In this document: positions 22,505 through 54,316 of the stretch, in pieces
Numbering within the stretch: position 1 is the first letter of the stretch
How the letters are laid out: each line of letters opens with the position of its first letter
NCBI RefSeq assembly: GCF_024228315.1
Contig: NZ_CP100456.1
Location: 1-64,000, forward strand
Length of the DNA stretch: 64,000 nucleotides
Direction: 5' to 3'
Source: Halomarina pelagica
GTDB taxonomy: Archaea; Halobacteriota; Halobacteria; Halobacteriales; Haloarculaceae
Made by a program: the position numbers and the translations under genes
The notes under the pieces: model-generated
Databases searched by the model: none
Seen by the model: the letters and a program-made list of their open reading frames with translations, nothing else
What the model was told of the DNA's origin: nothing

Positions 22505-23787
22505 ATGCAGATACGTGAGTGTCCGGTGCTCGCGGCGGAGGACCGCAAATTAGTCGAGCGCCTGTCGCTAGGGCTTGGCGGGGGAACGGCGCGCGTCCTC
22601 GCTTATTTGCTCCTTCGCGAACAGCTACCGGCATTCACCGCCGAGCCGGCGACCCGCCTCGAGATCCGACTCGGAACGGGAGATAGTCGGAGCGTGGTAT
22701 CGACGGCCCTGAACACCCTCTTGGAGCGGGACCTCGTCTCCGAGTCGACCGTCCAACGAGAGACGCGCGGTCGTCCACCGAAGGCGTGGCGACCGCGTAC
22801 CGACGTGTCCGAATCGGTTCGGCGCGCGTACGCCACTCACGCGACCGAACTCCTCAGCCGCGCGCTGGCGGTCGCCGAGACGATGACCGACCGAGTGCGG
22901 GGCAGAAACGGGTCAGGGGGTTCAGGGGACTACGATCCTCTCACGGTCGGGCTGAACTGGCGTCCGAACGTCCTCCACGCGCCGTTGTTCGCCGCCCACG
23001 AGCGAAACGAGTACGAGAACTGGGGACTCCCCATCCGGTTCCAGTCGTTCGAGGGCTCCGGACGGGCGCTCGAAGCGATGCTCGTCGGCGAGGCCGACGT
23101 GGTGGTCGCGGGCGCCGCGACGACCGTCCGCGCGCTCGAGGACGGCGCACCGCTCGTCCCGCTCGCACCGCTGTTCCAGCGGGCGATGGCGGTGCTCTAC
23201 ACGACGCGGGACGTATTCGGGGACCCGCTCGACAGCATCGAACGATTACGCGGGCGTCGTATCGGGATGCCGGCGGACGCCGAGACCGGACTACTGGTCC
23301 GGCTCTTCCTCTCGCAGTCGGGACTGCTCGACGACACGACCGTCGTCGACGTCGACGGCGAGGAGCGGGCGGCGCTTCGCTCCCGACGTGCGGACGTTGT
23401 TACCGGAACGTTCGCCGATCCACGATCCCTCGAAGCCGACGGGGCGACCGTCGACGTCCTCCCGATCGCCGACCACTTCCCGATATACGGCCCGACGCTG
23501 GTGACGACGGCGGGAACGGTACGGGAGCGTTCGGAATCCCTGGAGCGATTCCTCGCCGGCACGCTCGTGGGATATGAGACGGCCGTCACGTCGCCGGCTG
23601 ACGCCGTCAGGGCGGTCGTAGGATCGGACGCGGACGCCGTCGAGCGTGGCCGTCGGGACCTCGCGGACGCCGTCGACGAGTTCGGGGCGAGTAAAGCCGT
23701 CGAGGATCACGGGTGGGGGTGGCACAGTGCCGAGGAGTGGCAGCGACTCGCCATGGCGCTTCGGCACGCCGAACTCCTCAGCGCCGC

Positions 23788-23791
<4 letters not shown>
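22505..23791 (+). CDS. HTH regulator fused to an NMT1/THI5-like substrate-binding domain
   Basis: 428-aa fusion. Residues ~1-105 form a winged HTH (GGGTARVLAYLLLREQ ... LGTGDSRSVVSTALNTLLERDLVSEST ... RGRPPKAWRP). From ~145 onward the protein is a type 2 periplasmic-binding fold of the NMT1/THI5 class: VGLNWRPNVLHAPLFAAHERNEYENWGLP, VVVAGAATTVRALEDG, and near the end DHGWGWHSAEEWQRL. The same landmarks occur in the lipoprotein at 26092-27171. No signal peptide is present, so this binding domain is intracellular and probably senses the imported ligand. Its stop overlaps the ATPase start (ATGA), which places the sensor first in the transporter operon. Confidence 0.82.
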
Positions 23792-24524
<733 letters not shown>

Positions 24525-24528
<4 letters not shown>

Positions 24529-25322
24529 ACGCCGCTGAGCGCGTTCCCGCGGCCGGACTGGTGCTCCCCACCGTCGCGCTCGGCGTCGGCGTTCTGCTGT
24601 GGTGGCTCGCGGCTACGGCGTTCGCGCTTCCGTCGTATCTCCTTCCGTCACCCGTAAGCGTCACCGCGCGACTCGCCGCCGACCCGAGGCTGTACGCGGT
24701 GAACGCGTGGATCACGCTCCAGCGCATCCTCGTCGGCGGGGGGATCGGGATACTGAGCGGAGCCACACTGGCGGTGCTTATCGCCCACATCCCCCTGCTG
24801 CGTCGGACCCTGGTCCCGTACCTGGTGGCCGCTCGCGTCCTGCCGAAGATCGCCATCGCGCCGGTGTTGCTCATCTATCTCGGAACGGGGCCCACGACGG
24901 GAGTCGTGTTCGTGGCGCTCATCGCGTTCTTCCCGATGGTCGTGAGTACGGTCGCCGGACTCGACAGCGTCCCGACGGGCTACCTCGACCTGCTTGCGTC
25001 GATCGACGCCGGTCCGCTCGCGACGTTCGTCCACCTCCGCCTCCCGCACGCGCTCCCGGATGCCTTCGCGGGGGTGAAGCAGTCGGCGACGCTGGCAGTC
25101 GTCGGTGCTGTCATCGCCGAGTGGGTCGTCTCGACCGACGGCCTCGGCGCGTTGATCCTGATCGCGCTCGAGAACCTCCAGACAGATACCATGCTCGCGG
25201 CGCTACTCGTCCTCCTCCTCGAGGGGCTAGTGCTCTACGGAGCGATCGTCGCCGTTGAACGTCGCGTCGTGTGGGCTCAGCGCGACCTCGAGCGTCGCTC
25301 GAACCAGGCAGGGACCAGGTAG
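24525..25322 (+). CDS. ABC importer permease (SsuC/TauC type), first copy
   Basis: 265-aa inner-membrane permease with about six hydrophobic helices, beginning GLVLPTVALGVGVLLWWLAATAFALP. The cytoplasmic EAA-like loop reads GYLDLLASIDAGPLATFVHLRLPHALPDAFAGVKQSATLAVVGAV, as in the BPD_transp_1 family. Its start overlaps the ATPase stop by 4 bp. Its 3' end overlaps by 46 bp the 3' end of the second permease on the other strand. The two permeases may form a heterodimeric channel. Confidence 0.9.
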
Positions 25323-26086: not shown

Positions 26087-26091
26087 AGCGA

Positions 26092-27171
26092 TCAGGACTC
26101 CGAAACCGTCTCGGCGTACGAGACGATGTACTCGTAGTCGGTGTCGATGTAGTCGTTGGTCCAGACGCTGCTCGGATCGACGGAACCGCCGAGCAGGTCC
26201 GCACCGTGCAGCGCTTCGTACGTCGTCCGCCAGGGCTTCGGCGCACTCCACCCCCACCCCTTCGTTCGAACCGTGTCCGAGAGCATGAACGCCGAGCTCA
26301 TCAACTTCCACTTATCCAGCTGCTGCTCCCGAGATTCGGCCAACACCGGCACCGCATCCACGAGGTGATCGATCGCCGCCTCGGGGTGGCGATGCGCCCA
26401 CGTGGCTCCGCGAGCGGTGGCTCGAACGAACGCACGAACCATCTCCGAGCGATCACGTGCGAATCGCTTACTCGTGGCGATAACGTGTCCGTACGAGGGG
26501 ATCACCGACGCAACCGGGACGGAGTCGATGGTGTACCCCTGATGTCGCGCGGCGACGACGTCGCCGAAGACGCCGCCGGCGGCGTCGATCCGGCCGGAGA
26601 GCAGCCGTTGGACCGTGTCGTATCCCGTGTCGACCAGTTCGACGCTACGCAGGACGCCCTTCCGCTCGAGCATGAGCTTCGAGAGTAGGCGTACCATGCC
26701 CGGTCCGGTGCCGAGGGTCTTTCCCTCCAGTTGCTCGACGGCCGTGAACCTCGCGCCGAAGTTCTCGCGGGCGGTGAACAACACCACCGGGCTCCGCTGC
26801 ATCACGACGCCCACCGAGAGCGGCGAGAGTTCGCGACTGTTGACGTTGAGCACCTGGTCCGCGCTCGTGATCGCGAAGTTCGTGTTTCCGAGGCCGGCCT
26901 GCTTGGCCGCGAAGTCGGACCCCTGCCCGCTCTCGACATCGGCGAGTGCGAGGCCCTGGTCCTCGTAGAATCCCTCTCCCTTCGCGGCGTAATATGGGGC
27001 GTGGAGGCCGTTCGGTTTCCAGTTCAACAACAGCGAGATATCAGTCGTCTCTGTCCGTTTCCCGCCAGACGACGTCCGCTTCCCCGATCGATCGGCCGTC
27101 AATTCGCCCACGCATCCCGCCCCCAGCGCGAGGCCCGCGGTCGAGAGAAACGCCCGCCGTGATCGATTCAT
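26092..27171 (-). CDS. NMT1/THI5-like substrate-binding lipoprotein
   Basis: 359-aa exported binding protein. Leader MNRSRRAFLSTAGLALGAGCVG carries a TAT twin-Arg and a lipobox Cys. The mature part begins LLLNWKPNGLHAPYYAAKGEGFYEDQGL, the hallmark of the NMT1/THI5 class that binds thiamine-pyrimidine precursors, riboflavin-like or aromatic/sulfonate ligands. It ends GWGWSAPKPWRTTYEALHGADLLGGSVDPSSVWTNDYID. It shares these landmarks with the intracellular regulator at 22505 and the soluble protein at 42034. TATA-like atatataaac (minus strand) lies about 55 bases upstream. The exact ligand cannot be told from sequence. Confidence 0.88.
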   Translation of the reverse strand: MNRSRRAFLSTAGLALGAGCVGELTADRSGKRTSSGGKRTETTDISLLLNWKPNGLHAPYYAAKGEGFYEDQGLALADVESGQGSDFAAKQAGLGNTNFAITSADQVLNVNSRELSPLSVGVVMQRSPVVLFTARENFGARFTAVEQLEGKTLGTGPGMVRLLSKLMLERKGVLRSVELVDTGYDTVQRLLSGRIDAAGGVFGDVVAARHQGYTIDSVPVASVIPSYGHVIATSKRFARDRSEMVRAFVRATARGATWAHRHPEAAIDHLVDAVPVLAESREQQLDKWKLMSSAFMLSDTVRTKGWGWSAPKPWRTTYEALHGADLLGGSVDPSSVWTNDYIDTDYEYIVSYAETVSES

Positions 27172-28022: not shown

Positions 28023-29171
28023 ATGGCCCGTGCTATCATTAATCACTTACAGCGAGGGATCGCCGTGCTTCTGGTCCTCCTGCTGCTGACGTCGGGGGGT
28101 GTCGTCGCGCAGGAGCACGGTTCCGAGGGGGTGACTCAGGGGGAGGAAGAGCCTATCCTGACCGGTATACCCGCGGTGGTTGTGTTCGTCGCGGGTGCGG
28201 GATTGCTCATCGTCAGCGCCGAGAAGTTCATCGGCTATCTGGTGAAGACCGCTAACGGACTCGACGTCTCGTTGTTCCTGCTGGCGGTCGTGTTCACGGG
28301 AATCGAGTTCGACGATGCGATCCTCGGGATTACGACGAACCTCGAAGATCTCGGCGGCGTCGCACTCGGAACCGCGCTCGGAACCGCGCTCTCGCTGACC
28401 GGCGTGACGCTCGCACTCGCCGCCATTCTCGTCCCGTTCGACGCAGACGTACCGAAGGACTATCTCGTTCTGTTCGCACTGTCACCGCTCGTTCTCGTCC
28501 CGTTTGCGGTACTGGGCACCGTGACGGTCGTCCACGGTGTCGTTCTCGTTACGCTCTATTTGCTCGTCCTCGCATACGTTATCTATCGAGAGATAGGGAG
28601 CACGACGCCGGTGTTTCGGGACGCGGAGGTCACGAAGATCGTCGACGGCGGCCAGTTCCGGACGCTCTCGACGGAACTTCCCTTCGTCCCCGATCGGGAA
28701 CTTTCGGGCTGGACGTGGTTCGGCCTGTCCGTCGTCTCTCTTCTAGGTATCATCGTCGCGGCCGAGAGCATGGCGCTCGCCACCGAGGGCATCGTGACGG
28801 GCTACGGCGTCGAGGGGACCGTGTTCGGTGCGACCGTTGCTACCGCCGTTCTGACGCTTGAGGACGTCTTTCTCACCGTCGAACCGGTCCGTCGGGGGGT
28901 TCCGGAGATCGGTATCGGAAACGTCATCGGGAGCGTCCTGTTTTCGGTAACGGCGAACGTCGGGGTCATCGCACTCGTCGGCGACGTCGTCGTCGATCCG
29001 AACGTCCTCTCCTGGCACCTGCCGATGCTCGTCGTCTCGACCGCACTCGCGGCGTACTTCGCGCACACGGGTCGGATGACATCACGTCACGGGTATCTCC
29101 TTCTCGGGCTCTACGTCTGTTATTGGGCCGTCAGCCTGGTGGTCTTCGGCGGTATCCCGGTCGATCTATGA
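28023..29171 (+). CDS. Sodium/calcium exchanger-like membrane protein, copy 1
   Basis: 382-aa integral membrane protein of the Ca2+/cation antiporter (CaCA) superfamily. An N-terminal hydrophobic segment (GIAVLLVLLLLTSGGVVAQ) may be a cleaved signal or first helix, and about ten more helices follow. The second alpha-repeat is recognisable as VLTLEDVFLTVEPVRRGVPEIGIGNVIGSVLFS. The first (FTGIEFDDAILGITTNLEDLGGVALGTALGTAL) is degenerate, lacking the usual G-T-S-x-P-E and G-N-x-x-G-S-N. Ion specificity may thus differ. The ATG at 28023 is chosen over earlier in-frame codons. Its stop overlaps the stop of the convergent paralogue by 6 bp. Confidence 0.75.
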   Translation: MARAIINHLQRGIAVLLVLLLLTSGGVVAQEHGSEGVTQGEEEPILTGIPAVVVFVAGAGLLIVSAEKFIGYLVKTANGLDVSLFLLAVVFTGIEFDDAILGITTNLEDLGGVALGTALGTALSLTGVTLALAAILVPFDADVPKDYLVLFALSPLVLVPFAVLGTVTVVHGVVLVTLYLLVLAYVIYREIGSTTPVFRDAEVTKIVDGGQFRTLSTELPFVPDRELSGWTWFGLSVVSLLGIIVAAESMALATEGIVTGYGVEGTVFGATVATAVLTLEDVFLTVEPVRRGVPEIGIGNVIGSVLFSVTANVGVIALVGDVVVDPNVLSWHLPMLVVSTALAAYFAHTGRMTSRHGYLLLGLYVCYWAVSLVVFGGIPVDL

Positions 29172-30215
29172 AAGGAGGTTCGCCCCCCAGTAAGCGGCGT
29201 ACACTGCGAGCAGCACCGCACCCTCGGGTCGACCGATCCGTCCGCGGACGAGCATCCCCGCGACGAGACCGAGCGCGAGGAGGAAAAACGGCCAGTGGAC
29301 CGTGAACACCGTACCTGTCGTGTCGATCGGTCTAACCAGCGCAATGACGCCCGCGTTCGCCGTCACGAAAAACAGCATGCTACCGACGATGTTCCCCACG
29401 CCGAGGTGCGGCTGTCCCCGACGGACCGGTTCGACGGTGAGAAACAGTTCCTCGAGCGATGCGATAAAACTCATCACGGTCGCGCCGAACGCGAGCCCGG
29501 TAATGCCGATAACGCCGAGTATGGTCTGTGCACCGGAGACGGCGAGTTCCGACCCGACGGTCATGCCGCCCACCGCGAGGACCGCGACGCCGAGTCGATA
29601 CCATCCCTCGTGGTCGGCCCGGAACGACTCGAGCCGTCCGATCTCGAGGTCAAAGTCGAGGTCGAGGTCGAGGAACTCACCGTCGTCGTCCACCTCCTTT
29701 CCCCCGTCGAGTGCCTGAGCCTCCTCGATTTCCTCCGCGCTCAGATATCGCGTGCTCGACCGCCGTTCGAGTACGTACACGGCCGCGAGCAACGGTAGGT
29801 AAGCGACAGTAAGCAGGAGACCATCGGTGTGCGTGAGCGTTCCGTCGAGCGCAAGAGCGAGAAGCAGCGCCGGTGCACCGAGCATCATCAGGAGGTAGGA
29901 TCGCGGTACAGTCGTCTCGAACGGCGTAAGCACCCCCGCGAGCCCGACGGCCGCACCGAGGATGAAGAGCGCCTCACCGAAGACCGTGCCCAGCGCGAGG
30001 CCCGGAAGCCCATCGAGTACCGCCACGAAGCCGAGCACCGCGTTCTCGAGATCGGTTCCGGCCAGAAACACCGTCAAGAAGAACCCGGAGATGCCGAGCG
30101 CGAGCGCGCTCTCCGCGACCGCCTCGATGAACGTCTCGACGCTCCCGATGACCAGTCCGATACCGATCACGAAGGAGACGAGACCGACGATCACGGCTGG
30201 CGCGTCGAACGGCAT
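29166..30215 (-). CDS. Sodium/calcium exchanger-like membrane protein, copy 2
   Basis: 349-aa paralogue of the preceding protein. It has about ten hydrophobic helices and a central soluble acidic loop (EEIEEAQALDGGKEVDDDGEFLDLDLDFDLEIG). The second alpha-repeat SFIASLEELFLTVEPVRRGQPHLGVGNIVGSMLFF is well kept. The first (FLAGTDLENAVLGFVAVLDGLPGLALGTVFGEALF) is altered in the same places as in copy 1. The start is the ATG at 30215. Two convergent genes of one family could supply a heterodimeric transporter or two affinities. Confidence 0.75.
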   Translation of the reverse strand: MPFDAPAVIVGLVSFVIGIGLVIGSVETFIEAVAESALALGISGFFLTVFLAGTDLENAVLGFVAVLDGLPGLALGTVFGEALFILGAAVGLAGVLTPFETTVPRSYLLMMLGAPALLLALALDGTLTHTDGLLLTVAYLPLLAAVYVLERRSSTRYLSAEEIEEAQALDGGKEVDDDGEFLDLDLDFDLEIGRLESFRADHEGWYRLGVAVLAVGGMTVGSELAVSGAQTILGVIGITGLAFGATVMSFIASLEELFLTVEPVRRGQPHLGVGNIVGSMLFFVTANAGVIALVRPIDTTGTVFTVHWPFFLLALGLVAGMLVRGRIGRPEGAVLLAVYAAYWGANLLS

Positions 30216-30351
30216 GAGTGGACCACTCACGCGTTATCGATATATACCATTCGACGCGCCGACCGACGATCGGGGACCACATACCCATTTGTGCGAACTG
30301 TGACCGACGGGCATACTTATGCTTCGGCCGCCGGTACTTGGTCCACATCGA

Positions 30352-31299: not shown

Positions 31300-31785
31300 A
31301 TGACGTCCGATCAGCAGCTTCCGAACATCAAGGTAGGACGGGACGCCGCCCGCGACGCCGAGTGGGAGGGAGAGGAGGAGGAAACCGCCACAGTCGAGTA
31401 CCTCAACTACCGAGTACTCGAGAGGCACGGCTGGGACGTGGACGACGACGACCTCTTCGAGAAGGCGGCGGCGGCTGATCTGGACGACGTCGACTACGGA
31501 ACGCTCGAGGTCGGCGAGTATCGGTACATTCTCGACGCCGCCGAGGACGCCGGATACGCATGGCCGTTCGAGTGCCGAGCCGCCTCGTGTGCAAACTGCT
31601 GTGCCTTCCTCGTCGAGGGTGAGATCGATATGGACATGAACCTGTTTCTGACCGACGAGGAGGTCGAGGAGATGGGTCTCCGGTTAACGTGCGTAGGGAC
31701 GCCCGGCACCGAGGAGGTGAAACTCATCTACAACGTCAGGAGCCACGACTACCTTCAGACGGTCGTCGGAAAACGCGAAGTGTGA
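31300..31785 (+). CDS. 2Fe-2S ferredoxin, module copy A
   Basis: 161-aa plant-type 2Fe-2S ferredoxin with the haloarchaeal N-terminal extension ([25 protein letters not shown]). Cluster ligands are Cys92, Cys97 and Cys100 ([10 protein letters not shown]) and a fourth in RLTCVG near 136. Very acidic, cytoplasmic. It closely matches the ferredoxin at 50004-50495, including EYLNYR, DDDxLFEKAA and [10 protein letters not shown]-type segments. Likely electron acceptor for the AOR at 38023 and perhaps for other oxidation steps of the module. Transcribed alone, convergent with the coiled-coil gene. Confidence 0.9.
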
Positions 31786-31795
31786 TCCGAGGACG

Positions 31796-32260
31796 TCAGG
31801 ACGACCGTTCGATGGCCTCCTCGAGGCGTTCGTCGGGGGTCATGTTCATTACTAGCTGGTCCTCCTGGTAGCGCTGAGCGTGCGTAAGATCGAGGTCCTC
31901 TCCGTCGAGGGCGTCGAGGATCGCCGCGAGCAACAGCGCGTGCGTGTCGAGCCGATCCTCGAGTTCGTTGATGTTGTTGAACGCCTTCTCGGCGAACCCC
32001 GTGAGCGAGTCGGAGAACTCGGAGAGGCTCTCCTGACTCTGTTTGATCTTGCGCTCGTTCAGGCTGATCCGCGTGAAGTTGTCGACCTCCTCCAGCGTCC
32101 GTTCGAGGTCCGCGATCTCTTGCTCAAGCGACGCGACGCGCTCGTCGATGAGTCGCCTGATCAGGTCCTCCATCGTGACTTCGGCCTCCGATTCGGAGTC
32201 AGCGATGGACGCGTCGGCCGGCGCTTCCGGTGTGCGTCTCTGAGGCATCGGCGTCGTCAT
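31796..32260 (-). CDS. Coiled-coil protein, unknown function
   Basis: 154 aa from the ATG at 32260. Residues ~28-110 have strong heptad character (MEDLIRRLIDERVASLEQEIADLERTLEEVDNFTRISLNERKIKQSQES ... INELEDRLDTHALLLAAILDAL), so it is expected to form a helical oligomer. No enzymatic or DNA-binding motif is seen. It follows the quinoprotein gene by about 100 bases on the same strand and is probably in its operon. A homologous gene is not visible beside copy B, so it may be a variable accessory. Confidence 0.65.
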   Translation of the reverse strand: MTTPMPQRRTPEAPADASIADSESEAEVTMEDLIRRLIDERVASLEQEIADLERTLEEVDNFTRISLNERKIKQSQESLSEFSDSLTGFAEKAFNNINELEDRLDTHALLLAAILDALDGEDLDLTHAQRYQEDQLVMNMTPDERLEEAIERSS

Positions 32261-32363
32261 GTGGTGACACGCAGCACGGATGGACAAATAGTTTTGGGTC
32301 GAAGCGACGAACGTACTGGCATTAGACAGTTATCCCGTCGAAAAAACGCGTGGGAGACCTCCG

Positions 32364-34076
32364 TTACGCCGCCATCGAGAAGATGAGGAGTCTATCGTCG
32401 CGCTTCCCCCGGCGGAGCCAGCCGCTACCTCCGACCTGGATGGCGATGTACTGCTTCTCGGTGCCGGGGTCGTACCAGCTCATGGGACTGGCAGAGAGCG
32501 GCGTGTCGCCGCAGTCGAACTCCCAGACGCGCTCGCCCGTCTCTCCGTCGTAGGCGATAAGGTTGCCGTTCTGCGTGCCGGCGAACACGAGGCCAGTCGC
32601 GGTCGCCATCGAACCACCCCAGAGGTAGGTGTCGCTGTCGATCCAGTCGCGCCAGACGCGCTCGCCGGTCGCCGGATCGAGCGCGACGATGGAGGCGATG
32701 TGGCCGTTGTACTCGTCGGGCATCGCCTCGGTCTCGTCCTCGAGGATACCGCCCCAGTACTTCTTGCCCTCCTCGAACTCCTCGAACCGCCACCACGCCT
32801 CCTGGGCGTTGTTGTGCATCTTGTAGTAGATGAGGCCGGTCTCGGGGCTGTAGGCCGGGGGCTGCCAGTCGTTGCCGCCCATCCCGCCGGGCATGAACGT
32901 CCCACGCCTGCCCTCGTCGATGTGCGGGATCATCCGGAACATGTTGAGCTGCTGGACGCCCGGTTCGCTCCGTTCGATGAGTTCGCCGGTCTCGGCGTCG
33001 ACCGTGTACGCCCAGCCCGTCTTCCCGGCGTCGACGACGACGTCCTTGGTCTGGTTGCGGTGGGCGATCTCGAGGTCCTTGATGAACACGCGGGGGCAGG
33101 CCGAGTCGTAGTCCCAGACGTCGTGGGGCGACTCCTGGTGGAACCAGAGGCGTTCGCCGGTTTCCGCGTCGAGACACAGCGTACCGCAGGTGTTGCGGTT
33201 CGGTCCCGGTCGGACCGACCCGTCGAAGTCGGGACCGGGGTTCCCGACCGGCAGGTACAGCCGATTTCGCTCCTCGTCTAGCGTGGCCGTCATCCAGTTG
33301 GTTCCGGCCGCCTGGTTGATGCTATCGCCGACCCACTCCCCCTCCGGACAGGTGTGGGTGAACCACTTCTGCTCGCCCGTCTCGGTGTCGAGCGCCGTGT
33401 GGAACCCGCGGACGCCGTACTCGCCGCCGGCGCTCCCCGTGTAGAGCGTCCCGTCGTGGACGATGGGTGCCCACGTCGCGGAGTAGCCCCGCTCGTGGTC
33501 AGCAGTGCTCGTGTACCACACCTCCTCCCCGGTGTAGCGGTCGAGCGCGATGACCCCCGAATCGAGGGTGCACATGAAGATCTTGTCGCCGTAGACGGCG
33601 ACGCCACGATTGTTGTCGTCGCAGCAGAGCACGACGTCCGACGGTACGGCGTACGTGTAGCTCCAGAGGACGTCGCCCTCGCGCGGGTCGATGGCCTTCA
33701 CGTGGTTCGGCCCGTTCGACTGATACATCACCGGCGGATCGCCGGGGACTACCAACGGCGTCCCCTCCATGCTCGACCCGGAGCCGACCCGCATCTCGTG
33801 TTCCAGTTCGAGATCGTCGATGTTCTCGGGTGTGATGACGTCGGCGGTCGTGTAGCGGTGCTGTTCGTAGTTCCCCCCGTACATCAACCAGCACTCCGCG
33901 TTCTCACCGGAGTTGCTCAACATCTCCTGCGTGACGTCCTTCTCGGGAATGCGGTCGATGTCGTGCTGGTGGGTGACCGACTTCTCGGGTGCGCCGAGCA
34001 CCCGGTAGCCGTTGTCTGTCTCTCGAACGACGGTGTCCTGTGCGGCCTGAACGGCCCTGTCTTCCTCTATTGACAT
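32364..34076 (-). CDS. PQQ-type quinoprotein alcohol dehydrogenase, module copy A
   Basis: 570-aa eight-bladed propeller related to PQQ methanol/ethanol dehydrogenases. The adjacent Cys pair 151-152 (VLCCDDNNRG) matches the vicinal disulfide above PQQ. Glu219 (GGEYGVRG), Asn279 (VGNPGPDFDG) and Asp322 (HDVWDYDSA) match the metal ligands and catalytic base. The further Asp324, giving Asp-Tyr-Asp, is the signature of lanthanide-dependent XoxF/PedH enzymes. The N-terminus has no hydrophobic or twin-Arg leader, although relatives are periplasmic. It starts 6 bases after protein X (35000-34083) and is clearly co-transcribed with it. Expected reaction: alcohol to aldehyde. No PQQ biosynthesis genes are in the window. 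Confidence 0.87.
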   Translation of the reverse strand: MSIEEDRAVQAAQDTVVRETDNGYRVLGAPEKSVTHQHDIDRIPEKDVTQEMLSNSGENAECWLMYGGNYEQHRYTTADVITPENIDDLELEHEMRVGSGSSMEGTPLVVPGDPPVMYQSNGPNHVKAIDPREGDVLWSYTYAVPSDVVLCCDDNNRGVAVYGDKIFMCTLDSGVIALDRYTGEEVWYTSTADHERGYSATWAPIVHDGTLYTGSAGGEYGVRGFHTALDTETGEQKWFTHTCPEGEWVGDSINQAAGTNWMTATLDEERNRLYLPVGNPGPDFDGSVRPGPNRNTCGTLCLDAETGERLWFHQESPHDVWDYDSACPRVFIKDLEIAHRNQTKDVVVDAGKTGWAYTVDAETGELIERSEPGVQQLNMFRMIPHIDEGRRGTFMPGGMGGNDWQPPAYSPETGLIYYKMHNNAQEAWWRFEEFEEGKKYWGGILEDETEAMPDEYNGHIASIVALDPATGERVWRDWIDSDTYLWGGSMATATGLVFAGTQNGNLIAYDGETGERVWEFDCGDTPLSASPMSWYDPGTEKQYIAIQVGGSGWLRRGKRDDRLLIFSMAA

Positions 34077-34082
34077 TCTCGA

Positions 34083-37393
<3,311 letters not shown>

Positions 37394-38022: not shown

Positions 38023-39684
38023 ATGCTACACGCCCGGGGGCGACTACTGACCGTGGACGTGGGAGCGAGGACGACCGAGGAGACAGCGATCGACGAGGTG
38101 CTCGCGTCGTACGTCGGGGGCCGCGGCGTCGGGACGAAACTCGCGCACGACCGCATCCCGTTCGACGCCGATCCCTTCGGTTCCGAGAACCGACTGTTTT
38201 TCGCGACGGGACCGATGCAGGCGTCGAACATGAGTTTCACGGGGCGGATGTCCTGTACGGGCGTCTCGCCGCTGACCGACGGCCTGCTCTCCTCGAACGC
38301 CGGCGGGTTCCTCTCGCGGAACTTTCTGGCGACGGGCTACGCGGTTGTGGAGGTTGCGGGCGCGAGCGATGAACTCGTGGGGATCCACGTCGCCGACGAG
38401 GGGGTGAAATTCGAGTCGGTACCCGAGTTGGCCGGGGGAGTCGTCCCGGACGTCACGGCGCACGTCGCGGAGACGCGCGACCTCGGCCCCGAGCACGTCG
38501 CCTGCATCGGTCCGGCCGGCGAGAATCACGTGCGGTTCGCTTCGATCATGACGAGCAAGTCGCGGGCGTTCGGCCGCGGCGGTCTCGGGGCCGTCCTCGG
38601 TGCGAAGAACGTGAAGTTCATCACTTTCGACGGGAGCGTCGAACGCGCGCTCGATCCCCACTCCGTCGCCACGGAAATACACCGGGAGGCCGCCGCCTCC
38701 GACAGCGTCATGAAGCGGCAGGGGACGGCGGGGCTGACGACGTACGCCGATCAGGTGGGGGCGCTCCCGACGCGGTACTTCTCGGAACTCTCGTTCGAGG
38801 GAGTCGAGGGCATCAGCGGGGATCGGGTGGCGGAGAAGAAGTATAGGAAGGGCACCTGTTCTGCGTGCGCGTTCGCGTGCAAACTCCCGACGTGCGACGA
38901 GGCGAGCGGCCTCGAGACGGAGGGACCCGAGTACGAGACGGTGATGGCCTTCGGCTCGAACGCCGGGATCGACGACGTGACCGCCGTCATGCGGTCGAAC
39001 GAACTGTGCGATCGGCTCGGTATGGACACCATCTCCTGTGGGGACGTCGTGTCCGCGTACCTCGCAAGCGAGGACGCGTTCGGGGACGCCGACCTGATCC
39101 ACGCCCTCGTCGAGGACATCGCCTACCGGGAGGGCGTCGGCGACCTGCTCGCGGAGGGGATCGACCGCGTTCACGGGGAACTGGGCGTCGAGAACTGGTC
39201 CGTGAAGGGTATGGAGTTCGCCGCCCACGACGGTCGAACGCTAAACGGCCAGGGCCTCTCGTTCGCCACCGCGAACCGCGGGGCGGATCACCTCTACGGG
39301 AGCATGTACGTCTACGAGTACCCGCTCGTCTCCCCCGAGGCGGCCCTCGACCGGGAGGGCCTCGACGGTAAGCCCGAACGACTCGTGGAGAGAGAGAACC
39401 ACAACGCGGTGCTCGATTCGGGCATCGTCTGCCGCTTCTCGCGCGACGTGGTGGCCGACGAGCGCCTCGAAACCCTACTCGATGCCGATTACGGGGAGTT
39501 GCTCGCGCTCGGTGCACGGATCGTCGACCTGGAACGTCACTTCAACAACCGGCGCGGGTTCGACCGCGCGGACGACGCGCTCCCCTACGACCTGCCGGGC
39601 TTCGAGGCGGCGCTCGACGCCTACTACAAGGCCCGGGGATGGAACGCGGACGGGACAGTTCCGTCCGAACGGATCGAGGAGTGA
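38023..39684 (+). CDS. aor: Aldehyde ferredoxin oxidoreductase, module copy A
   Basis: 553-aa tungsten-pterin enzyme oxidising aldehydes to carboxylates with ferredoxin as acceptor. The N-terminal AOR domain has GGRGVGTKL and SFTGRMSCTGVSPLTDGLLSSNAGGFLSRN, and the pterin-contact segments (GPAGENHVRFASIM, SRAFGRGGLGAVLGAKNVK) are present. Cys279, Cys282 and Cys286 (CSACAFACK) and a fourth Cys in SGIVCRFSR bind the 4Fe-4S cluster. It is about 90 residues shorter than copy B, with a shorter C-terminal end. Cytoplasmic. A TATA-like tttta sits about 25-30 bases upstream of the ATG. Confidence 0.92.
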   Translation: MLHARGRLLTVDVGARTTEETAIDEVLASYVGGRGVGTKLAHDRIPFDADPFGSENRLFFATGPMQASNMSFTGRMSCTGVSPLTDGLLSSNAGGFLSRNFLATGYAVVEVAGASDELVGIHVADEGVKFESVPELAGGVVPDVTAHVAETRDLGPEHVACIGPAGENHVRFASIMTSKSRAFGRGGLGAVLGAKNVKFITFDGSVERALDPHSVATEIHREAAASDSVMKRQGTAGLTTYADQVGALPTRYFSELSFEGVEGISGDRVAEKKYRKGTCSACAFACKLPTCDEASGLETEGPEYETVMAFGSNAGIDDVTAVMRSNELCDRLGMDTISCGDVVSAYLASEDAFGDADLIHALVEDIAYREGVGDLLAEGIDRVHGELGVENWSVKGMEFAAHDGRTLNGQGLSFATANRGADHLYGSMYVYEYPLVSPEAALDREGLDGKPERLVERENHNAVLDSGIVCRFSRDVVADERLETLLDADYGELLALGARIVDLERHFNNRRGFDRADDALPYDLPGFEAALDAYYKARGWNADGTVPSERIEE

Positions 39685-40154: not shown

Positions 40155-41051
40155 ATGCCAGACAATGGCAAACTCCGTCTGTTCCACCTTCCGTTCTCGT
40201 TCATGCTCCCCCAGCACGTGGCGGGCGATCGAGGGTACTTCGCGGACGAGGGGATCGAGGTCGAGATCGTCGAGCGCGATCGCGAGAGCGTTGATTGGAA
40301 GTACATCCCGGCGGAGGAGACGCTAACGGGCGACTACGACATGGATCTCTATCCGATCTGTAAGTGGGAGTCGCTCAAGCGGACGTGGGACATGGATGAC
40401 GGTCGAGTCGTCGGCGCGGGTACGTTCGCCGACCAGCCGTACACGGTCTACGTCCGACCCGAGAGCGACGTCGAGGAGCCGTCCGACCTCGCGGGCGTGC
40501 CGGTGGGCGTGAACCGTCGGACCGGTCAGGAGTACACCGTCATCCGAGCGCTCGAGGAACACGTTCCCCCCGAGGCGGTCATACTCGAACACCACGGAAT
40601 GCCGACTGATCGGTTGCGAGCGCTCCGCGACGGCGAGGTCAAGGCGGTCTCCCTGCTCGAACCGCAGAGCACGCTGGCCGAGCACCTCGGATTCAGGGCC
40701 GTCCTCCGGTTCGAGAACCACATGGGTATCGTCGCGGCCGAGGAGGTGGACGCCGAGACGCTCGACGCGTTCATGCGAGCGTACGCCCGGGCGGTCGGGG
40801 CGATCAACGACGACCCCGACGCCTTCCGCGAGGAGTACCTCGCCATGCTCGACGCCGACGCCGACGTCGCGCCCGACTTGTTCGAGGGCGTCGATCGCGA
40901 GGCACTGCTCGCGAGCATCGAAGTGCCGACCTACGAGCCGCCCGAACCGGCCGACCGTGCGGAACTCGGGGCACACCTCGAGTGGATGAAACGCCGACAG
41001 CTCGTCGACGAGAACGCGGACATCGACGCCATCGTGGGGCCAGCGCGATGA
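40155..41051 (+). CDS. Substrate-binding-fold protein without signal peptide (PBP 1)
   Basis: 298-aa type 2 periplasmic-binding-like fold related to NMT1/THI5 proteins: LRLFHLPFSFMLPQHVAGDRGYFADEGIEVEIVE at the start, then PYTVYVRPESDVEEPSDLAGVPVGVNRRTGQEYTVI as the hinge region. No TAT motif, hydrophobic leader or lipobox is present, so it should stay in the cytoplasm. It opens a three-gene set in which each gene overlaps the next. Alternatives to transport include a ligand carrier, or an enzyme of the kind seen in PBP-fold decarboxylases such as 4,5-dihydroxyphthalate decarboxylase. Confidence 0.75.
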   Translation: MPDNGKLRLFHLPFSFMLPQHVAGDRGYFADEGIEVEIVERDRESVDWKYIPAEETLTGDYDMDLYPICKWESLKRTWDMDDGRVVGAGTFADQPYTVYVRPESDVEEPSDLAGVPVGVNRRTGQEYTVIRALEEHVPPEAVILEHHGMPTDRLRALRDGEVKAVSLLEPQSTLAEHLGFRAVLRFENHMGIVAAEEVDAETLDAFMRAYARAVGAINDDPDAFREEYLAMLDADADVAPDLFEGVDREALLASIEVPTYEPPEPADRAELGAHLEWMKRRQLVDENADIDAIVGPAR

Positions 41052-44949: not shown

Positions 44950-45876
44950 ATGGTAGGGTCCTACAAACCCCAGATAACCGCTCGGGACAGAGAGCAGTTA
45001 GCGGTCGAACTCGGTGCCGATACGTCGGTGACCGATAGCACGCTGACACTCACTGAACTCCGGGATACGGTCGGCGCAGAGACAGATCCAGCGTTCGCTT
45101 CGATGGGTAAGGCCATCCGCGCTGATCTGCGAGGGCAGTTAGATGCCGATCGTATCCAGGCTGGACTATCGGGGCTGGAAGCGCAACTCGCGCGTGCCTC
45201 GGAGGTACGCGCAGTGGGTATCCCCGAACGATTCGGACCTGGCGACGCTGGCGTCCAAAAACTCTACCGCGAACTCATCGATCCGGTCTGGGGGACATAC
45301 GACCACCTCGTGGACGTCGGGTTCTTCGAGAGCCTCTCGGATAACCTCCCGGCGTTTACACCAGAACACATCGATCGTACCGCCCGCGGGTTAGTCACGG
45401 CGGATCTGTTGACGGCCGGACTGGTCGACTGTGGATTCGACGAGCGTGAGCGCACGGCGTTGATGATGGACGTGGTCAACAACGACACACGTCTCTCTCG
45501 GTGGGTCCCGACGCAGGACATCCCGGAGGGAGTCGAGTTCGACGTGGATTACGTCCCGCCACTGTACCATCGAGCGATCGGCGGAGGGTTACTCTGGATC
45601 AAATCTCTCGACCGACACCTGGTACAGAAGCGGATCCTTCTCACCGAGGACATCCTCGATGACGCCTTCTGGCGAGCGAAGGCGATACTCGGGGGGGCCG
45701 ACTCGTTCCTGCGCGCCGTCAACGACGTGGCCGCCGACGGATCCGAGTTGACCGACGAACAGTTGATCGCCGGCGTGAGCGGTGGTGCGGCCATCGCAAT
45801 CGTCAACCAGGAGGAACTGATGCGGGAAGCGTACTGGATAACCGAGGAGAAACGCGCGCCGAGCAAAGCGAGATAG
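44950..45876 (+). CDS. Protein X, copy B: unrecognised quinoprotein partner
   Basis: 308-aa paralogue of the protein at 34083-35000. Conserved landmarks in the same order are LYRELIDPVWGTYDHLVDVGFFES, MMDVVNNDTRLSRWVPT, VDYVPPLYHRAIGGGLLWI, QKRILLTEDILDDAFW, IVNQEELMREAYWITEEKRAPSKAR. As in copy A, no signal peptide and no known domain. The start is set at the ATG at 44950, matching copy A in length. The quinoprotein gene follows 31 bases downstream. Recurrence of the pair in both copies is the best evidence that X works with the quinoprotein. Confidence 0.8.
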   Translation: MVGSYKPQITARDREQLAVELGADTSVTDSTLTLTELRDTVGAETDPAFASMGKAIRADLRGQLDADRIQAGLSGLEAQLARASEVRAVGIPERFGPGDAGVQKLYRELIDPVWGTYDHLVDVGFFESLSDNLPAFTPEHIDRTARGLVTADLLTAGLVDCGFDERERTALMMDVVNNDTRLSRWVPTQDIPEGVEFDVDYVPPLYHRAIGGGLLWIKSLDRHLVQKRILLTEDILDDAFWRAKAILGGADSFLRAVNDVAADGSELTDEQLIAGVSGGAAIAIVNQEELMREAYWITEEKRAPSKAR

Positions 45877-45907: not shown

Positions 45908-47632
45908 ATGGCAACAGGAGAACGAGACAACGAGGCAGTCAGGGCCGCGAGCGAGACCATCGTCGAAGAGACCGAACTCGGGTACCAGGTATTCAACGCA
46001 CCGGACGAACCGGTCCTCGACCAGCACGATACCGATCGCATCCCCCGGTTCGACGTCACCCAGGAGATGCTGACCGAGGGCGGCGACGACCCCACAAACT
46101 GGTTGATGTTCGGGAACAACTACGAGGCACATCGTCACACCACCGCCGACGTCATCACCAAGGACAACGTCGACCGACTCGAATTAGAGTACGAGATGGA
46201 GGTGGGTGCCAACTCCAGCATGGAGGGCTCACCGATCATCGTTCCCGGTGATCCACCGGTGATGTACCAGGCCAACGGGCCGAGCCACGTGAAGGCGATT
46301 GACGCCCGCGAGGGGGAGATCCTCTGGGCGTACACCTATCCTGCTCCGGAGGACGCGGTGCTCTGCTGTGACGACAACAACCGCGGCGTCGCCGTCTGGA
46401 AGGACAAGGTCTACATGACTTCCCTCGACTCCGGCGTGCAGGCGCTCGACCGCTACACCGGCGAGGAGGTGTGGTACGTCTCGACGGCGGATTACAAGGA
46501 GGGATACTCCGCGACGTGGGCACCCATCATTTACGACGGAATCCTGTTCACCGGTAGTGCGGGTGGGGAGTACGGCGTTCGGGGGTTCCACTGCGCCATC
46601 GACGCCGAGACCGGCGAAGAACTCTGGCGACTCGAAACGTGTCCGGAGGAGGAGTACGTCGGTGACAGTATCAAGCAGTCCGGCGGGACGAACTGGATGA
46701 CTCCGACACTCGATACCGAGCGCGAACTCCTGTACTTCAACGTCGGTAATCCGAGTCCGGACTTCAACGGGACGGTCCGACCGGGACCGAATCGGAACAC
46801 CTGCTCGACACTCTGCGTCGACCCCAGGTCGGGCGAGATCCTGTGGGCGCACCAGGAGTCCGCCCACGACATCTGGGACTACGACTCCGCAAATATGCGG
46901 ATGCTCATCCGGGACGTGGAGATCGACCACCTAGACTATCGGGGTGACATCGTCTACAACGCCGGAAAGACTTCCTGGACGTACACGATGGATCCAGACA
47001 GTGGCGATCTGCTGATCCGTGGTGAGCCACTCACCCAACAGATCAACTTCATGCGGCTCGTTCCGCACGTCGAGGAAGAGCGCGAGTACGTGATGCTCCC
47101 CGGCCTGCTCGGCGGTGTCGACTGGCAGCCCGCCTCGTACTGTCCGGAAACCGGCCTCTGTTACCACAAGGTCCTCAACACCCCCCATTCAGTGAAGTGG
47201 CAGAACGAGGAATACAGACCCGGTGAGAAGTTCTGGGGCGGCGTCGTCGACGTCGAACCGGACGAGGAGGACATCCCGGAGGAATACAACGGGCACATCA
47301 GCTGTATCGCGGCGGTCGATCCCACGACGGGACGGGTCAAATGGCGCGACTGGATCGACAGTGACCGCTATCTGTGGGGCGGAACCATGTCCACCGCCAC
47401 GGGACTTCTGTTCGCCGGTACACAGAACGGCGACCTGATCGCCTACGACGGCGAAACCGGCGACCGCCTCTGGGAGTTCGACCTCTCCGATAAGGCGATC
47501 GCCGGAGATCCGGTCAGCTGGTACGATCCCGAGACCGAGAAGCAGTACGTCGCCATCCAAATCGGTGGTAGCGGGTTCGTCGGTCGGGGACCGCGCGGCG
47601 ACCGGCTCGCGGTCTTCTCGCTGAAGAAGTAG
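45908..47632 (+). CDS. PQQ-type quinoprotein alcohol dehydrogenase, module copy B
   Basis: 574-aa paralogue of the protein at 32364-34076. The Cys pair 153-154 (VLCCDDNNRG), Glu221 (GGEYGVRG), Asn281 (VGNPSPDFNG), Asp324 and Asp326 (HDIWDYDSA) preserve the PQQ disulfide, metal ligands, catalytic Asp and the extra lanthanide-type Asp. The N-terminus (MATGERDNEAVRAASETIVE) is acidic and has no export signal. Eight tryptophan-docking propeller repeats are visible (e.g. DAREGEILWAY, DRYTGEEVWYV, DAETGEELWRL, DGETGDRLWEF). Full length, no disruption. Alcohol oxidation is expected; the substrate cannot be assigned. Confidence 0.87.
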   Translation: MATGERDNEAVRAASETIVEETELGYQVFNAPDEPVLDQHDTDRIPRFDVTQEMLTEGGDDPTNWLMFGNNYEAHRHTTADVITKDNVDRLELEYEMEVGANSSMEGSPIIVPGDPPVMYQANGPSHVKAIDAREGEILWAYTYPAPEDAVLCCDDNNRGVAVWKDKVYMTSLDSGVQALDRYTGEEVWYVSTADYKEGYSATWAPIIYDGILFTGSAGGEYGVRGFHCAIDAETGEELWRLETCPEEEYVGDSIKQSGGTNWMTPTLDTERELLYFNVGNPSPDFNGTVRPGPNRNTCSTLCVDPRSGEILWAHQESAHDIWDYDSANMRMLIRDVEIDHLDYRGDIVYNAGKTSWTYTMDPDSGDLLIRGEPLTQQINFMRLVPHVEEEREYVMLPGLLGGVDWQPASYCPETGLCYHKVLNTPHSVKWQNEEYRPGEKFWGGVVDVEPDEEDIPEEYNGHISCIAAVDPTTGRVKWRDWIDSDRYLWGGTMSTATGLLFAGTQNGDLIAYDGETGDRLWEFDLSDKAIAGDPVSWYDPETEKQYVAIQIGGSGFVGRGPRGDRLAVFSLKK

Positions 47633-48208: not shown

Positions 48209-48604
48209 ATGGTGAACAGCACCCGTCACGCTGTCTACGAACTCTACTACCACGTAGTATTCATCCCGAAGTACCGGGAACAGCGCCTCACGGGTGCGAC
48301 CGCCGACCGGCTTCACTCCATCTTCGAGGAAATCTGCGACGACAAGGACCTCGAACTGGTCGAAGCCGAAATCATGCCCGACCACGTTCACTTGTTCATC
48401 GGCAGCCCGCCGAAGAACGCCCCGTCGCTCATCGTCAACTGGGTGAAGGGAATTTCCGCCCGGTGGTACAATGAGCGGTCCAACGACCGTATCAAGTGGA
48501 CGCGCTCGTACTACGTTGGGACTGCCGGCAGCGTCTCGAAAGACGCCGTCGAGCAGTACATCCGCGAGCAGAAGGACAAACAGGACGGGGAGTGGACCGC
48601 GTGA
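48209..48604 (+). CDS. tnpA: TnpA, Y1 HUH transposase
   Basis: 131-aa single-strand transposase of the IS200/IS605 family. It has the HUH pair in [10 protein letters not shown] (residues ~59-68) and the catalytic Tyr in EQYIREQKD (~118). The family core [11 protein letters not shown] and [12 protein letters not shown] is present and the length is normal, so the protein is likely active. It shares four bases with tnpB. Confidence 0.92.
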
Positions 48605-50003: not shown

Positions 50004-50495
50004 TCAATCGTCGGATCCGGACGCCGTGTCGCCCTCGTGCCCAGGGTTTCGGCTCTTCGCTACCTCCGGGGCGGCGTTAAAAATGATTCGAAGGGTATCG
50101 GTCTCGGGCTTACAGACGCAAGTGAGTCGCATATCTCGCTCTTCGACCTCCTCATCGCTGAGTACCAGGTTCATGTCCATCTGTGCCTCACCACCCTTCA
50201 GAATACCTGTACAGACGTTACAGGTGCCCGACCGGCACTGCGAGGCCCACTTGAGATCGTTGGCTTCGGCGGACCGAAGCAACGTCTCGTCGCGGTCGAC
50301 GTCCATCTTGCCGTAATTCAGGTCGTTCAGGTCGAGCGCAGCTGCCTTTTCGAAGAGTTCGTCGTCGTCGATACTCCAACCGTTCTCGACGACCGTTCGG
50401 TAGTTGAGGTACTCAACCTCCGCCGGCGGTAGATCCTCCTTCTCTTCCTCGGCCTGCTCGACTCCCGGACCGACCGCAGGGAGCTGAATGTCCAT
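50004..50495 (-). CDS. 2Fe-2S ferredoxin, module copy B
   Basis: 163-aa ferredoxin homologous to the one at 31300. The N-terminal part shows EVEYLNYRTVVENGWSIDDDELFEKAA. The cluster ligands are Cys87, Cys92 and Cys95 (QCRSGTCNVC), with a fourth Cys in RLTCVC near 130. It is very acidic and cytoplasmic, with a short disordered tail. The start is the ATG at 50495. It lies between two transposons, on the strand opposite to the other genes of copy B; probable electron acceptor of the AOR at 52382. Confidence 0.9.
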   Translation of the reverse strand: MDIQLPAVGPGVEQAEEEKEDLPPAEVEYLNYRTVVENGWSIDDDELFEKAAALDLNDLNYGKMDVDRDETLLRSAEANDLKWASQCRSGTCNVCTGILKGGEAQMDMNLVLSDEEVEERDMRLTCVCKPETDTLRIIFNAAPEVAKSRNPGHEGDTASGSDD

Positions 50496-50599
50496 GTCAC
50501 TGGGTTGCACGGAGCGCAATTAAATTTTTGCCACGTACGGCCACTCAGTCGTAAATTGTAATCTCCACAGTCGGGTACTGTTATGGAAGTTGCAAGGCT

Positions 50600-52381: not shown

Positions 52382-54316
52382 ATGACTGAACTCGGCGGCT
52401 TCCAGGATCACGTAGCACGCATCGACCTCTCGTCGGGCGAGGTGAACTACGAGGGAATCGACGAAGAGGACGCGAAACAGTACCTCGGGGCGCGCGGGCT
52501 CGGGGTGAAGTACGTCTTCGACCAGGGGCCGGATGTGGATCCGCTCGGGCCGGAGAACCTGCTGGCGTTCACGAACGGGCCGCTCACGGGGACGCAGGTG
52601 GTGATGAGCGGGCGCATCGCCGTCTGCACGAAATCGCCGCTCACCGGCACCGTGACGGACTCCCACCACGGGGGCTGGTCGGGCGCGCGCCTGAAGTGGG
52701 CCGGCTTCGACGGCCTGCTCTTCGAGGGGCAGGCCGAAGAGCCCGTCTACGCCGTCGTCGAGGACGGCGAGGTCGAACTCCGCGACGCGTCTCATCTGTG
52801 GGGTAGGGACTTCCATGAAGTCCGCGATACCTTAGAGGAGGAGTGTGAGGGAAGTTACGGCAAGAATTTGTCCGTGATGGGCATCGGTCAGGCGGGCGAG
52901 AACGGCGTCAAGTTCGCCTGCATCATGAACGAGGACGACCGCGCCTCCGGGCGCGGCGGCACGGGCTGCGTGATGGGCTCGAAGAACCTGAAGGCAATCG
53001 TCGTAAAATCTAACACAAAAATGCCGAAGCCGGCGGACCCGGAGACCTTCCGCACGGGCCACCAGCAGGCCATGCAGGTCATCCAGGAGTCGGAGGTCAC
53101 CGCGCCCAACGAGGGCGGCCTCTCGCTCTACGGCACCAACGTCCTCATGAACATTAGCGAGGAGATGGACGGCCTCCCAACGAAAAACGGGAGGTACACC
53201 TCGACAGGATCCTATAGCGACGACGAGGGCGTCGAGATCGACGCCGAACACGTCTCGGGCGAGAACGTCCGCGAGAACATCCTCGTGGACGAGCCGACCT
53301 GTCACTCCTGTCCGGTCGCCTGCAAGAAGGAAGTCGAGGTCTCCACCAGCCACAAGGGCGAGGACATGAACGTCCGGATGGAGTCCTACGAGTACGAGTC
53401 GGCGTGGGCACTCGGCCCCAACTCCGGTCATACGGATCGGGACGACATCGCGGTCATGATCGACCGGTGTAACGACCACGGCATGGATACCATCGAGACG
53501 GGCAACATCATGGCGATGGCGATGGAGATGACCGAGGAGGGCACGTTCGACGACCTCGGCGAGGGGATCGACTGGGGTAATTCAGAGGCCATGATCGAGT
53601 TGGTGACGAAGATCGCGACTCGCGAGACGAAACTGGCCGAGCATCTCGGCGAGGGGCAGAGACACATGGTCGATCGGTTCGATGCGGAGAACAACTCGCT
53701 GGCGGTGAAGGGACAAGCCATCGCGGCGTACGACCCGCGCTGCATGAAGGGGATGGGGATCGGGTACGCCACCTCGAACCGCGGGGCGTGTCACCTGCGC
53801 GGGTACACGCCGGCGGCGGAGATCCTCGGCATCCCCGAGAAGGTCGACCCCTACGAGTGGCGCGGCAAGGGCGAACTCTGCGCCACCTTCCAGGACATGC
53901 ACGCGATCAGCGACTCCTTCGACATCTGCAAGTTCAACGCCTTCGCGGAGGGCGTCGAGGAGTACGTCCTGCAGTACAACGGCATGACCGGCCTCGACGT
54001 GAGCGAGGAGGAACTCATGCAGGCCGGCGAGCGCGTCTACAACCTCGAACGGTACTACAACAACCTCAACGGCTTCGACGCCGACGACGACTCCCTGCCC
54101 GCACGCTTCCTCGAGGGCGGCATCCCCGGCCAGGGCGCGAGCGAGGGGCAGTACTGCGAGCTCGAGGAGATGAAGGAGGAGTACTACGACCACCGCGGCT
54201 GGGTCGACGGCGTGGTCAGCGAGGAGAAACTCGACGAACTCGGTATCGACGTCGGTCCCGGAACCGGCGTCAGCCTGAACGACCGCGGTAGCGCAGCTGC
54301 CCCTTCCGACGACTGA
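52382..54316 (+). CDS. aor: Aldehyde ferredoxin oxidoreductase, module copy B
   Basis: 644-aa full-length AOR. The pterin-binding N-domain shows LGARGLGVKYVFDQG and GRIAVCTKSPLTGTVTDSHHGGWSGARLKWAG. Central motifs are IGQAGENGVKFACIMNEDDRASGRGGTGCVMGSKNLKA. The 4Fe-4S ligands are Cys307, Cys310 and Cys314 (CHSCPVACK) and a fourth in FDICKFNAF. Expected reaction: aldehyde + ferredoxin(ox) to carboxylate in the cytoplasm. It is closer in length to classical tungsten AORs than copy A and may differ in substrate. The ATG at 52382 is preceded by the TACGTWAC repeats; the aldehyde dehydrogenase gene follows on the same strand after 147 bases. Confidence 0.95.
   Translation: MTELGGFQDHVARIDLSSGEVNYEGIDEEDAKQYLGARGLGVKYVFDQGPDVDPLGPENLLAFTNGPLTGTQVVMSGRIAVCTKSPLTGTVTDSHHGGWSGARLKWAGFDGLLFEGQAEEPVYAVVEDGEVELRDASHLWGRDFHEVRDTLEEECEGSYGKNLSVMGIGQAGENGVKFACIMNEDDRASGRGGTGCVMGSKNLKAIVVKSNTKMPKPADPETFRTGHQQAMQVIQESEVTAPNEGGLSLYGTNVLMNISEEMDGLPTKNGRYTSTGSYSDDEGVEIDAEHVSGENVRENILVDEPTCHSCPVACKKEVEVSTSHKGEDMNVRMESYEYESAWALGPNSGHTDRDDIAVMIDRCNDHGMDTIETGNIMAMAMEMTEEGTFDDLGEGIDWGNSEAMIELVTKIATRETKLAEHLGEGQRHMVDRFDAENNSLAVKGQAIAAYDPRCMKGMGIGYATSNRGACHLRGYTPAAEILGIPEKVDPYEWRGKGELCATFQDMHAISDSFDICKFNAFAEGVEEYVLQYNGMTGLDVSEEELMQAGERVYNLERYYNNLNGFDADDDSLPARFLEGGIPGQGASEGQYCELEEMKEEYYDHRGWVDGVVSEEKLDELGIDVGPGTGVSLNDRGSAAAPSDD

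Follow-up and report, generated by a model that had tools for sequence, protein, structure and literature searches.

A quinoprotein dehydrogenase and its helical partner in Halobacteria: probable neighbour-borne Tat export and a putatively cytoplasmic clade

The window analysed here, the whole stretch of 64,000 nucleotides from Halomarina pelagica, encodes two quinoprotein alcohol dehydrogenases (QDH1 and QDH2) that we read as members of a haloarchaeal module, formerly co-exported, which turned cytoplasmic in the clade to which they belong and runs there on scavenged PQQ. To this whole reading we assign a probability of roughly 0.6. It would make QDH1 and QDH2 cytoplasmic D-x-D (lanthanide-type) enzymes, each produced with an obligate helical partner. 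In most haloarchaeal relatives the folded enzyme would leave the cell on the Tat signal of the partner or of an adjoining blue-copper protein, which, where present, is the likely electron acceptor outside. The window's clade would have lost both Tat signals and the copper protein, and its enzymes would probably oxidise alcohol in the cytoplasm, handing the aldehyde product to neighbouring aldehyde ferredoxin oxidoreductases, with electrons passing to 2Fe-2S ferredoxins, and to an aldehyde dehydrogenase. The evidence was computed as fold and residues, partner linkage, the pattern of Tat gain and loss, pqq absence and gene neighbourhood; the cytoplasmic location, alcohol substrate, identity of the quinone and metal, and import routes are predictions from it.

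The common view places PQQ and lanthanide alcohol dehydrogenases in the bacterial periplasm. If our reading is correct, the obligate partner, the neighbour-borne Tat export and the cytoplasmic clade show that quinoprotein chemistry can be relocated, and they raise the questions of how PQQ, and possibly a lanthanide, is supplied to the cytoplasm of a cell unable to make PQQ and of which acceptor takes the electrons of the enzyme there. The analysis adds to the initial annotation a paired gene without known family, a history of Tat signals and a ferredoxin/aldehyde-oxidoreductase neighbourhood, and it puts forward the partner as a new protein family, together with candidate PQQ and metal transporters. 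The literature searched, thin on subscription journals, yielded no description of haloarchaeal PQQ dehydrogenases, the module, the partner family, the Tat shifts or the cytoplasmic clade.

Class, active site and metal of QDH1 and QDH2

QDH1 (positions 32364..34076, minus strand; an intact ORF of 570 aa) and its paralogue QDH2 (45908..47632, plus strand; 574 aa, 63% identical), both without a signal peptide, match PF01011 with E-values of 7.9e-59 and 3.5e-53; the 4.6-Mb genome has no further PF01011 gene. Their scores of 380 and 384 bits against TIGR03075 lie under its curated cut-off of 480 bits, so we place them by sequence as a divergent branch of the PQQ alcohol dehydrogenases (methanol/ethanol family, TIGR03075/PF01011). 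The AlphaFold model of QDH1 (pLDDT 89.3) is an eight-bladed propeller that matches PedH, XoxF and MxaF, the nearest solved fold being the lanthanide enzyme PedH (6ZCV, Foldseek E 6e-47), followed by XoxF. Assignment to the D-x-D type PQQ alcohol dehydrogenases with a PedH/XoxF fold is thus supported by sequence and model, and PQQ binding and alcohol oxidation are predicted. The QDH genes evolve under purifying selection (dN/dS ∼0.07-0.11), and the closest named genome is that of Halomarina halobia PSR21 (97% identity).

The initial annotation had credited both proteins with the Cys-Cys pair, Glu, Asn and catalytic Asp of PQQ alcohol dehydrogenases and with the second Asp that marks lanthanide enzymes; all of these are present, along with a Trp, and coincide with their counterparts in an alignment with PedH (6ZCV/6ZCW), the second Asp falling on that of the PedH motif WDFDG. 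The QDH1 residues, encoded on the minus strand, are the Cys151-Cys152 pair (33621..33626), Glu219 (33420..33422) and Asn279 (33240..33242) at metal ligand positions, Trp261, Asp322-Tyr-Asp324 (33105..33113), where the catalytic Asp is joined by the second one characteristic of lanthanide enzymes, and Lys352. Their equivalents in QDH2 are Cys153-Cys154, Glu221, Asn281, Trp263, the D-Y-D motif at residues 324-326 (46877..46885, plus strand) and Lys354. The Lys replaces an Arg of MxaF and XoxF and is also found in the quinohaemoprotein 1YIQ. Across the haloarchaeal copies, Arg157 is conserved in 101/101, Trp261, Asp322, Asp324 and Lys352 in 100/100 (one gap each), Asn279 in 99/101, Glu219 in 90/101 and the Cys pair in 69/101; within the window's clade every one of these positions is kept in 36/36. 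The invariance of Asp322, Asp324 and Lys352 in all alignable copies argues that the second Asp is not there by chance.

An Asp two residues past the catalytic Asp is the sequence mark of the lanthanide subgroup (XoxF/PedH/ExaF), and by the field's rule its invariance indicates at least facultative lanthanide use, although it is an indicator, not proof, and some D-x-D enzymes are predicted to be facultative (PMC11996626). We therefore regard lanthanide use by QDH1 and QDH2 as likely on sequence grounds. The most serious competitor, which we consider a tangible if lesser possibility, is that both are PQQ dehydrogenases that use calcium in vivo. It would fit the sodium/calcium-family exchangers linked to the module (24/97 loci within ∼6 kb, and within ∼10 kb in 10/12 module genomes compared by coordinates), the Lys at the Arg331 position shared with 1YIQ and the status of the second Asp as an indicator, and it has to contend with the strict conservation of that residue. 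Free calcium is normally very low in the cytoplasm, which favours a tighter-binding metal.

Among characterized enzymes, PedH of Pseudomonas putida shares with the QDHs the propeller fold, Cys-Cys pair, Glu, Asn, Trp and D-x-D, but it is only ∼28% identical, periplasmic and bacterial, has Arg where they have Lys, and lacks such a partner gene. XoxF-type lanthanide methanol dehydrogenases (6DAM, 4MAE) share the fold and the D-x-D metal motif; they are exported and pass electrons to a c-type cytochrome, whereas the QDHs are accompanied by a helical partner, with no cytochrome and no pqq genes. Since marine heterotrophic Thaumarchaeota were earlier reported to have D-Y-D-bearing PQQ dehydrogenases, complete with signal peptides, as well as a PQQ synthase (PMC7300363), the occurrence of such enzymes in an archaeon is not new in itself. 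Those enzymes resemble the QDHs in being archaeal and PQQ-type, some with D-Y-D, but they have no Cys pair, mostly carry signal peptides or membrane segments, and come from genomes that encode PQQ synthase.

The partner gene and the history of export

Partner 1 (34083..35000, minus strand; 305 aa) lies 6 bp upstream of QDH1, and partner 2 (44950..45876, plus strand; 55% identical to partner 1) lies 31 bp upstream of QDH2. The predicted structure of partner 1 is all-helical (pLDDT 87.6). The family has no Pfam or NCBIfam match, its best E-value in a profile search against the PDB is 0.26, and fold comparison gave a best E of 0.53 with Foldseek against the PDB and a best Z of 6.6 with VIA-align, which is in the chance range for helical proteins. 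Signal-less partners also gave hits to a phosphoribosyltransferase model, but these were weak and lacked other support, and we discounted them.

The distribution of the two genes was examined in a sample of one genome per species. Of 146 genomes from the host's family, nine carry the dehydrogenase and exactly those nine carry the partner, and among 391 Halobacteria genomes the dehydrogenase occurs in 69 and the partner in 70, which include all 69. The odd genome holds decayed remnants of both genes (contig C1 of genome G298, positions 1281353-1282345, locus L227), as if the module had been lost as a unit. In 102 copies examined, the dehydrogenase is immediately downstream of the partner on the same strand, save for one divergent exception (L231, contig C35 of genome G057) whose two genes run on different strands and which lacks the Cys pair. 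The partner was not found at any of 71 bacterial loci. Judged from sequence, then, it is a new protein family and an obligate companion of the dehydrogenase.

The absence of export signals claimed for both enzymes holds: neither N-terminus has a hydrophobic stretch, and neither reading frame could accommodate a twin-Arg signal, that of QDH1 having only two codons upstream of its ATG. A hydrophobic N-terminus is found in 0/101 haloarchaeal dehydrogenases vs 51/71 bacterial relatives. A signal peptide of its own is usual for a member of this family, not defining, as signal-less actinobacterial members exist, so the family membership of QDH1 and QDH2 stands.

Many partners, by contrast with those in the window, start with a twin-arginine motif (D/E-RRxFLKxLG) followed by an Ala/Gly/Val stretch, and the NCBI Tat model TIGR01409 matches 24/29 partners with the RRxFLK motif and 0/28 without it. 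The motif is present in 38/38 partners of the grade outside the loss clades, a grade delimited partly by this same motif; clade counts are not independent events, and two losses on the tree are the fair count. Partners 1 and 2 do not carry it, partner 2 not even in an extended frame. Two state changes suffice to explain the Tat pattern both on the dehydrogenase tree, in which the haloarchaeal clade is monophyletic, and on a partner tree from which the signal region was left out; both are quick trees with SH-aLRT support only. On this sequence evidence the partner is ancestrally Tat-bearing, with two losses.

Where the partner lacks a signal, two clades have a Tat signal on the gene that follows the dehydrogenase (21/21 and 6/6 copies), and by motif that gene mostly encodes a plastocyanin-type blue-copper protein (21/21 and 4/6). 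We accordingly dropped the rule that a partner without a Tat motif means a cytoplasmic enzyme. Taking partner and next gene together, a Tat motif accompanies 65/65 dehydrogenases outside the window's clade vs 0/36 inside it; one apparent next-gene match inside (L230, PRRRMDAGRA) has no hydrophobic stretch and is false. Several dehydrogenases, all with a Tat partner, end in PGF-CTERM-like surface tails and, being signal-less themselves, are expected to be exported along with another protein. Co-export on a neighbour's Tat signal is, as read from these sequences, the ancestral habit of the haloarchaeal family. As a separate observation, a Tat-signal blue-copper domain is fused to a GSDH-type (PF07995) sugar dehydrogenase domain at L165:8955-11099 and in similar genes (L161-L168), an arrangement convergent with the exported quinoprotein modules.

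Location of the window's clade and its neighbourhood

For the location of the enzymes the initial annotation had offered two options, cytoplasm or export with another protein. The second stands as the ancestral habit, and its loss from the window's clade favours the cytoplasm for QDH1 and QDH2: in none of the clade's 36 copies does the partner or the gene that follows show a Tat motif or a hydrophobic segment, and no blue-copper gene adjoins. Its enzymes also carry more cysteines beyond the pair (4.17 per enzyme vs 1.13 in the Tat-partner group; p 4e-9 for free cysteines against all others), in the direction set by signal-less actinobacterial enzymes (6.2) vs exported bacterial enzymes (2.6). 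Free-cysteine content is nonetheless an unclean marker of location, given a sister clade in the Natrialbaceae that has no partner Tat motif, an exported copper neighbour and intermediate cysteines (3.0), and whose location appears ambiguous.

The genes around the module differ as well. A haloarchaeal-type 2Fe-2S ferredoxin and a CDC48-type ATPase each stand beside 29/36 copies of the window's clade and 0/65 others. In the window these are ferredoxin 1 (31300..31785, plus strand; best PDB match 1E0Z), ferredoxin 2 near QDH2 (50004..50510, minus strand) and a CDC48-type AAA ATPase divergent from partner 1 (34982..37393, plus strand), whose listed GTG start overlaps partner 1 and whose true start is probably downstream. 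On the island, QDH1 and QDH2 are each accompanied by a separate ferredoxin and a separate aldehyde ferredoxin oxidoreductase (38023..39684 and 52382..54316, both plus strand), together with one aldehyde dehydrogenase (PF00171; 54464..55984, plus strand), although an aldehyde ferredoxin oxidoreductase lies within ∼6 kb of only 10/36 copies of the clade. A coiled-coil-like conserved protein downstream of QDH1 (31796..32287, minus strand) occurs only beside copies without a partner Tat motif (19 loci). Within the island, transposase-like genes flank ferredoxin 2: on one side a short tnpA-like gene that overlaps with a TnpB-like gene (48209-49890), on the other a further TnpB-like gene (50680-51852).

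We consider the lost signals, the ferredoxin/CDC48/aldehyde-oxidoreductase neighbourhood and the extra cysteines to be independent signs that favour a cytoplasmic enzyme. Speaking against it, the two vicinal Cys, which form a disulfide in exported relatives, are kept in 36/36 copies although the compartment should be reducing. The retention of this pair, typical of exported enzymes, would suit an enzyme that is still exported, by another co-export partner or a non-classical route, and acts at the cell surface; every relative outside the clade does come with a Tat motif, be it the partner's or the next gene's, and a hitchhiking partner may be encoded anywhere in the genome. Such continued export nevertheless seems unlikely to us in view of 36 copies that have no signal on the partner or next gene and no blue-copper gene alongside, show linkage to genes for ferredoxin, CDC48 and aldehyde oxidoreductase, and hold more free cysteines.

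Within the preferred cytoplasmic reading, the ferredoxin counts as a neighbour by synteny and does not belong to the operon. The potential of haloarchaeal ferredoxin is too low for direct electron uptake from PQQ, and on these redox grounds, which are general knowledge, we set it aside as the direct acceptor of the QDHs; more likely it serves the aldehyde oxidoreductase.

PQQ supply and candidate transporters

No PQQ biosynthesis gene was found near QDH1 or QDH2, as the initial annotation had noted, and the genome-wide search that it had proposed found neither PqqC nor PqqE anywhere in the genome. At the cut-off, PqqC is absent from all 391 Halobacteria (0/391); PqqC and PqqE are both missing from 41 module genomes and both present in 3/3 bacterial controls. 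PqqE alone is a poor marker, with radical-SAM relatives matching everywhere below cut-off, and we relied on PqqC and the bacterial positive controls. The simplest reading is scavenged PQQ, because the pqq genes are missing yet the cofactor-site residues are invariant in the window's clade and the QDH genes under purifying selection, and the QDH enzymes probably work on PQQ from outside the cell. PQQ import is well documented in Gram-negative bacteria, many bacteria running PQQ enzymes on scavenged PQQ (PMC12124388); no archaeal PQQ importer was found in the literature searched.

A bolder version, of which we are rather doubtful, would have a lanthanide-charged quinoprotein oxidise alcohol in the cytoplasm in coupling with the aldehyde ferredoxin oxidoreductases, using a quinone from outside the PqqA-E pathway: either PQQ brought in by a dedicated importer on the island or another quinone made by a different route with the partner's help. 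It is quite improbable, by our estimate, that the proteins are 'empty' quinoproteins whose propeller is kept as a scaffold or sensor with no PQQ bound, like the acidobacterial TIGR04528 group (acido-empty-quinoprotein group A), since the lack of PqqC and PqqE in every module genome tested and a weak TIGR04528 similarity (268 and 262 bits, far under the curated cut-off of 650 and thus outside that group) are set against a stronger TIGR03075 match (380 bits), conservation without exception of all named PQQ- and metal-ligand positions in the window's clade, linkage to aldehyde oxidoreductases and the use of scavenged PQQ by many bacteria (PMC12124388).

Signal-less PQQ dehydrogenases in actinobacterial operons resemble the QDHs in their D-x-D, many free cysteines and dedicated upstream gene, but they form a separate branch of the tree, the upstream gene belongs to an unrelated family (PF23509, MSMEG_3727_PQQ-assoc), and apparent pqqB/C/D/E genes follow directly. 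At seven such loci (L070, L072, L076, L077, L083, L087, L105) the dehydrogenase stands behind a ∼150-aa PF23509-type gene (tested in L077), and apparent pqq genes, recognised by eye, follow in most of them. These loci may represent another PQQ system, cytoplasmic or co-exported, that is independent of the haloarchaeal one.

For the scavenged PQQ of the preferred reading, the linked ABC importer and NMT1-type proteins are a candidate route into the cell. In the window they comprise an ATPase (23713..24528, plus strand), linked to the module in many genomes, a permease (24525..25322, plus strand), a second permease (25277-26311, minus strand) and an NMT1/THI5-type substrate-binding lipoprotein (26092..27171, minus strand) with its own Tat signal (RRAFLSTAGLALGAGC); NMT1-type binding proteins accompany the module at 39/98 loci and ABC permeases at 29/98. 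Two sodium/calcium exchanger family proteins (PF01699; 27999..29171, plus strand, a possible metal transporter for the enzyme, and 29166..30230, minus strand) are candidates for the metal supply, this pair being the one that recurs near the module in the genomes compared by coordinates. Adjoining the ABC importer, and of the same ligand family, a gene at 22505-23791 joins a DNA-binding-like N-terminal part to an NMT1/THI5 substrate-binding domain, a make-up that suggests a sensor of whatever the importer brings in. Three successive genes (40155-41051, 40982-42034 and 41887-43014) encode NMT1/SsuA-like binding proteins that have no signal peptide; these are conserved beside module copies without a partner Tat motif and may be cytoplasmic binding proteins or enzymes.
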